Positions 62,473 through 63,687 of a DNA stretch of 64,000 nt are shown here, in pieces. The DNA lies in assembly GCF_028875915.1 (NCBI RefSeq), contig NZ_JAPEHW010000011.1:1-64000 (forward strand), in the 5' to 3' direction. Origin of the DNA: Pseudoalteromonas sp. G4 (GTDB lineage Bacteria > Pseudomonadota > Gammaproteobacteria > Enterobacterales > Alteromonadaceae). The notes under the pieces were generated by a model. The model worked only from the letters and a program-made list of their open reading frames with translations, searched no databases and was not told where the DNA came from. Position 1 is the stretch's first letter. Every line of letters begins with the position of its first letter. A program made the translations under genes and the position numbers.

Positions 62473-63687
62473 ATGGATCAATTTGTTATTCAAGGTGGCA
62501 GCACAATTGCCGGTGAAGTGACCATTTCTGGCGCGAAAAACGCCGCACTTCCAATTTTATTTGCAGCGATTCTCGCAAACAGCAAAAGTCGTTTTACTAA
62601 TGTGCCACGTTTACGTGATATCAATACCACGGAAGCATTACTTGCAACACTTGGTGCGCAGGTTGAATGGCAGCAAGATGACTTAATTGTTGACGGTAGC
62701 ACAATCGATAAAGTGCTAGCGCCTTATGATTTAGTAAAACAAATGCGTGCCTCTGTTTTAGCTTTAGGGCCATTGTTAGCGCGCTTTGGTGAAGCACAAG
62801 TGTCTTTACCAGGCGGGTAAAAAATGGGCGCTGATATTACTGTGGAAGGCGGTTATATCAATGCCAAAGTAAATGGTCGCTTAAAAGGCGCACATATCTT
62901 TATGGATGTGGTGAGCGTTGGTGCAACTGAAAACTTACTTATGGCAGCCACATTAGCTGACGGTGTAACTGTATTAGAAAACGCTGCACGTGAACCAGAG
63001 ATCACTGATTTAGCTAAATACCTTACAGCCATGGGCGCAAAGATTTCTGGTGCAGGTTCTGACCGCATAGAAATTACAGGTGTAGAATCACTTATCGGTT
63101 GCGAACATCGCATTTTGCCAGATCGCATTGAAACAGGTACTTACCTTGTTGCTGCAGCAATGGCAAAAGGTGAAGTCTTATGTCTTGGTACAGATCACTT
63201 TAGTCTAGAACCTGTTATTGAAAAATTACGTGATGCTAATGCACATATCGAATTAAGCGATAACAGCATTTATCTCGATATGCGTGGTCGTATGCCAAAG
63301 GCGGTTAATATTAAAACCTCACCGCACCCAGGTTTCCCTACGGATATGCAAGCGCAATTTACCGCACTTAATGTAGTGGCTGAGGGCAGTGCAACCATCA
63401 CCGAAACGATTTTTGAAAACCGTTTTATGCATGTGCCTGAACTAAAACGTATGGGCGCGAATATTCGCTTAGAAGGCAATACTGCAATTTGTGGGTATAC
63501 CGAGCAGCTTAGTGGTGCTCAAGTAATGGCAACAGACCTACGTGCTTCTGCAAGCTTAATTTTGACAGGCGCTATTGCACAAGGCGAAACAGTTGTAGAC
63601 CGAATTTATCACGTTGATAGAGGTTATCAGCGCATTGAAGATAAACTAGGTGGTTTAGGCGTAAAAATAGCTCGCCGTAAAGCTTAG
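62473..63687 (+). pseudogene. murA: UDP-GlcNAc 1-carboxyvinyltransferase MurA, active-site loop deleted, interrupted by TAA
   Basis: MurA makes the first committed step of peptidoglycan synthesis. The first 115 codons (62473-62817), including Lys22 in [10 protein letters not shown], are normal and end LPGG. A TAA at 62818-62820 then meets AAA and ATG at 62824. The remaining frame, in phase, encodes [15 protein letters not shown]... to the normal C-terminus. Compared with the E. coli order (LPGG, catalytic Cys115, IGARPVDLH, a short linker, then LGA), about 15 codons are missing, including the catalytic cysteine. AGGCGGG lies before ATG 62824, so the second part could be translated separately. 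Both parts are well conserved. Loss may be real or an assembly fault. Confidence 0.9.

Follow-up and report, generated by a model that had tools for sequence, protein, structure and literature searches.

An in-frame 45-nt gap in the murA gene of a Pseudoalteromonas draft genome, probably a fault in the deposited sequence

MurA is described in PMC10500568 as the enzyme that catalyses the first step of peptidoglycan synthesis, and a murA gene that appears broken in a bacterial genome raises the question of whether the organism or its sequence is at fault. This question is posed by Pseudoalteromonas sp. G4, whose murA lies near the end of the stretch of 64,000 nucleotides analysed here (hereafter the window) and had been described in an earlier note as either a striking loss or an assembly or sequencing fault. 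The second of these fits the evidence best; for a striking loss, nothing particular to this strain speaks in its favour.

The gap in murA and what it removes

Positions 62473-63687 hold a murA gene from which 45 nt are absent in frame, including the codon of the catalytic Cys115 (E. coli numbering). The joined codon, 62818-62820, reads TAA, and the gene is thus not a single uninterrupted reading frame. The first ORF (62473-62820, 115 amino acids) ends in SLPGG immediately before this stop, and the second runs in the same register from the ATG at 62824 to 63687 (287 amino acids). The features of the gene are the following:

62473..62820, + strand: 5' piece of murA, 115 codons and TAA, matching E. 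coli MurA residues 1-114 and TIGR01072 positions 1-116 (140.3 bits)
62811..62817, + strand: AGGCGGG, resembling a ribosome-binding site 6 nt before ATG 62824, within the coding sequence of the conserved LPGG
62818..62820, + strand: junction codon TAA, with the deletion point between 62818 and 62819 and 45 nt absent in comparison with intact copies of the genus
62824..63687, + strand: 3' piece of murA, 287 codons, matching E. coli MurA residues 132-417 and TIGR01072 positions 134-416 (393.1 bits)

With the stop read through, the whole gene matches TIGR01072 over its full length (positions 1-416) with 525.4 bits against a cut-off of 392.7, a value that the 3' piece reaches even by itself. Both flanks of the gap align with E. 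coli MurA (1UAE chain A) without further stops, the first piece stopping at residue 114 and the second starting at 132; in place of the 17 residues between them stand a stop and one Lys, so that 15 codons are lost on balance. Alignment with 12 intact copies from the genus places a single 45-nt gap between T 62818 and A 62819, and a further 6-nt gap in the same alignment is apparently due to two copies, L016 and L035, that are each 6 nt longer than the others. At the protein level, comparison with two relatives, G024 and G012, gives in both cases a 15-residue gap and one stop. The TAA would arise where the T that opens the Cys codon meets the AA that closes the codon 15 further on, and no special origin is needed for it.

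Cys115 is the key active-site residue of MurA and Arg120 is conserved, as stated in PMC9346081. Both fall within the lost stretch, residues 115-131 being without a counterpart, and the active-site loop with its catalytic Cys, which characterizes MurA, is therefore missing from this copy. Asp takes the place of the loop Cys in some lineages, as in the E. faecium Cys119Asp case. In comparison with 1UAE, the residues matching 115-129 are absent and a TAA stands inside the gene, so that the protein, as written, would not be a functional MurA. Thus, the loss of about 15 codons after LPGG with TAA at the join, as well as the loss of the catalytic Cys, both put forward in the earlier note, were borne out by the ORFs, by 1UAE and by the alignment of the genus. 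The AGGCGGG that the note had pointed to is also in place; nevertheless, it is not evidence of a designed second start, because it codes for PGG within the conserved LPGG.

murA in the genus and in the class, and the search for another copy

A murA gene above the cut-off was found in all 108 Pseudoalteromonas genomes searched, that of the window included, and an internal stop in none of the 107 others, the window's copy standing alone. All 109 loci in which the gene was located, by a rule that requires a downstream IG.R motif and does not require Cys, carry the loop Cys (110 loci were examined, and L098 was not found by the motif). Since the Cys is kept in all of these and the stop is absent from the 107 others searched, the gap is not a matter of chance divergence. 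Among the matches listed, the best named one to the 3' piece is L035, from P. luteoviolacea S2607 (79%), whose murA is 93.6% identical to L016 of G022, a genome of the same genus; the genus assignment is drawn from this match. No mention of a loss of murA appears in the titles and abstract openings of the literature matches listed.

In the class, 135 of 140 genomes (again counting the window's) gave a match at E <= 1e-100, and a stop was found in none of the other 134, among which G169 aligned only from position 162 and is uninformative on the loop. In a mixed set, all 60 genomes matched at E <= 0.001 and 59 of them exceeded the cut-off. The six genomes without a strong match (G058 of the mixed set; G146, G162, G170, G175 and G266 of the class set), none of which belongs to the genus of the window, were searched again at E <= 10. 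A weaker murA-like gene of 317 bits, below the cut-off, was obtained for G170, while the best matches of G058, G146 and G266 (0.3-0.4 Mb) and of G162 (2.6 Mb, 99% complete) reached 49 to 77 bits, a level that aroA also attains, with G162 at 77; G175 (1.5 Mb) gave no match even at this threshold. Hence five genomes listed as 95-100% complete (G162, G175, G058, G146 and G266) are without a convincing murA, and this apparent absence in distant members of the class may be a true loss or may reflect gaps in their sequences.

The draft genome of the strain comprises 4,404,483 bases (4.40 Mb) in 179 contigs, with a listed completeness of 100 and a contamination of 0.36. The earlier note had proposed a second MurA and advised a search for one; the PF00275 and TIGR01072 searches returned two members of the enolpyruvyl transferase family, namely murA and an uninterrupted gene on contig C157, and the latter was rejected as a second MurA, as it is aroA by its NCBIfam model (464.8 bits, cut-off 287.25). 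These searches, together with a loop pattern, revealed no second copy or fragment of murA in the assembly. As for a loop displaced elsewhere, an exact degenerate pattern for CAIGARPVD gave 0 matches in the genome; this is the form found in 44 of the 109 loops, including the 12 aligned copies of the genus, and the pattern would miss a copy that has diverged or is interrupted.

At E <= 1e-40, three of the other 107 genomes in the genus (G064, G015 and G034) yielded an additional, weaker MurA-like gene, and the genome of the window none. The genes of G064 (L131:4018-6237) and G015 (L132:4045-6320), of 376 and 361 bits, are below the cut-off of 392.7 and keep the Cys after PGG. Both adjoin a second MurB-like gene (TIGR00179, above its cut-off) and sit, by eye, in an apparent surface polysaccharide cluster, suggesting production of a MurNAc-like lactyl sugar for capsule or O-antigen. 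The gene of G034 (L133:6033-7451; G034:C30:40063-41376) encodes a distant MurA-like protein of 204 bits and 472 amino acids from the first Met, near a 1120-amino-acid protein that by eye resembles a peptide synthetase, possibly in a natural-product cluster.

Quality of the draft and pace of change around the gap

General indel noise in this part of the draft is apparently not the cause, as 20 of the 20 other conserved genes around murA are without a real break in comparison with G024 or G012. Stops were met in this comparison where the frame is antisense and, in the case of mlaE, where the G024 ORF extends further upstream; the G012 ORF matches mlaE without a stop. A gap of 8-9 residues without a stop in mlaD, and one small gene near murA that was matched over 105 of 147 residues, were taken as normal variation. 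The neighbourhood is that of the genus, with neighbours matched by the murA-region ORFs of G024 and G012 alike. Immediately upstream of the gene lie:

59127..62462, + strand: six genes that we take to be mlaF, mlaE, mlaD, mlaC, mlaB and an ibaG-like gene; five of the six are matched by the relatives' murA-region ORFs without a real break, and the ibaG-like gene, too short for this, was compared in the rate analysis

By profile scanning of 30 ORFs of the window, 16 were found to have an NCBIfam match at E <= 1e-50, none of which looks cut; the other 14 had no such match and are uninformative, and rpoN belongs to both the 20 genes and the 30 ORFs. Elsewhere in the window, positions 40745-42142 of the - strand encode a 465-amino-acid protein of the beta-CASP metallo-beta-lactamase fold, whose best NCBIfam match is 'type VII Cas14' with 368 bits, below the cut-off of 800, and a general beta-CASP nuclease is likelier than a type VII Cas14. 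The region 26099-30385 carries a gene for an MbnH-family di-heme enzyme (529 bits) beside matches to trans-3-hydroxyproline dehydratase, an aminopeptidase and pyrroline-2-carboxylate reductase.

At the junction, alignment with the relatives disclosed neither a repeat nor a homopolymer to which a mis-assembly could be traced. A hairpin-driven loss was rejected, given that the DNA around the missing part, folded for four relatives, is unremarkable (z of -0.65 to -1.56). A clean in-frame join of this kind, with the surrounding genes intact, does not look like an ordinary base-calling error. The clean draft and the repeat-free junction therefore count against simple noise and still allow that some of the sampled DNA contains a real junction.

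An ageing pseudogene is hinted at, at first sight, by the private changes of the window's murA, 11 at 281 columns against 9 at 279 for L009 (G011) and 0 to 2 for the other 19 comparators; this candidate was rejected, as an equally long branch is seen in the neighbouring genes. Of the columns that are invariant in seven relatives, murA of the window deviates at 9 of 94 in the 5' piece and at 24 of 250 in the 3' piece, and the intact murA of G011 differs at 9 and 21 of the same columns and that of G022 at 5 and 29. The neighbours, with gene labels that are presumably correct (mlaF, zapE, mlaE and others), behave in a comparable way: mlaF has 21 differences versus 20 in G011 of 221 columns and zapE 28 versus 29 of 302, while some are faster in the window, such as mlaE with 23 versus 11 in G011 of 223. 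The lptB and rpoN rows were left out, the compared stretches being without those genes in full. Against G024, the 5' and 3' pieces have pN/pS values of 0.193 and 0.185, which are low within the range of 0.15 to 0.42 seen among the neighbours. The pieces of murA evolve at the pace of their intact neighbours, with no relaxation, and from this even pace of both it follows that the gap is extremely recent or absent from the living genome. Synonymous sites are saturated, which makes the deletion undatable. There is also no sign of a chimera, the two pieces being about equally close to G024 (83.5% and 84.3%).

Readings of the gap and their consequences

Our preferred explanation, which we consider probable, is that the strain has an ordinary single-copy murA and that the deposited draft is wrong at one point through a consensus or assembly fault; 45 nt of the active-site loop would have been dropped from the consensus, and an intact murA would most likely be present in the living strain. 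That the sequence rather than the organism is at fault is what we infer from the presence of only one murA although the genome is listed as 100% complete, from the lack of a stop in the murA of the other genus and class genomes, from the absence of decay in the two pieces and from an intact murB (274 bits, no stop), with which the strain retains the following step of de novo synthesis. What speaks against a fault is the in-frame break, the lack of any artefact cause visible at the junction (as judged on the relatives' letters, the strain's own missing ones being unseen), the locally clean draft and the few distant class genomes seemingly without murA. The join is clean and blunt, keeps the frame and shows no repeat; it resembles a true DNA junction and, like the cleanliness of the surrounding assembly, would also suit a deletion that is real in some of the template molecules and coexists with an intact murA, either in a mixed culture or in a duplicated murA region of which one copy lost the loop and which the assembler collapsed into the shorter version. 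We hold this to be unlikely, though well worth bearing in mind: a short bubble might collapse in a draft of 179 contigs, but no second copy or fragment accompanies the gene in the assembly, the contamination is listed as only 0.36, and a minority variant would normally lose to the majority path. We judge a fault to be the most likely explanation, a real deletion with an unseen intact copy the second, and dependence on MurNAc a distant third, these odds being a matter of judgement.

The last of these supposes that the loss is real and fixed, so that UDP-MurNAc is no longer made de novo and the strain is a MurNAc auxotroph living on imported wall fragments by way of an AmpG-like permease, AnmK, an AmgK-like kinase and MurU. 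Genes for such salvage are in the genome: MurU (281 bits, cut-off 250), an AmgK-like gene that adjoins murU (216 bits, below its cut-off of 550), AnmK and a permease of the AmpG family; the seemingly murA-less genomes of the class lend it some further support. The set is, however, not specific. murU occurs in 98 of the 105 other genomes of the genus (99 of 106 with this one), whose murA has no stop, and being commonplace its presence explains nothing special; at least that part of the kit is ordinary. Tannerella forsythia, reported in PMC5790795 to be a MurNAc auxotroph without murA and murB, would share with this strain a dependence on salvaged MurNAc if the loss were real, but the present genome keeps an intact murB, and its murA shows no decay except for one gap, so that the loss of both genes seen in Tannerella is not reproduced. 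The side-by-side amgK-like gene and murU do recall the AmgK/MurU route of Pseudomonas, which bypasses the MurA step; according to PMC5371407, that route works beside MurA, and its replacement of MurA is unsupported here. Moreover, recycling alone could hardly supply net new wall. A fixed loss with salvage is in our view very unlikely, and slightly more doubtful still is its fullest version, a free-living marine gammaproteobacterium that very recently lost MurA activity through one 45-nt deletion and, as a MurNAc auxotroph, now subsists on wall fragments from other bacteria by means of AmpG, AnmK, AmgK and MurU. We give least credence of all, as highly improbable, to a use of two pieces, which the earlier note had considered, in the form that the separately translated 115- and 287-amino-acid products would together make up a functional MurA with a new type of catalysis. 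Both pieces stay conserved and the AGGCGGG lies ahead of the second ATG, but this motif is merely the LPGG coding sequence, the stretch holding Cys115 and Arg120 has no counterpart and the Cys is kept in every copy located. A working enzyme without the loop is not credible, and pieces that lack it are not expected, from their sequence, to work.

If a fault in the deposited sequence is indeed the cause, the case serves mainly as a warning that an essential gene can be killed in the consensus of a genome whose listed completeness is 100%, and such an error would mislead metabolic models as well as predictions of the fosfomycin target. If, on the other hand, the deletion proved to be real and fixed, the strain would offer a natural case of a bacterium that does without the first committed enzyme of wall synthesis, and with it a way to test whether salvage alone can carry growth.
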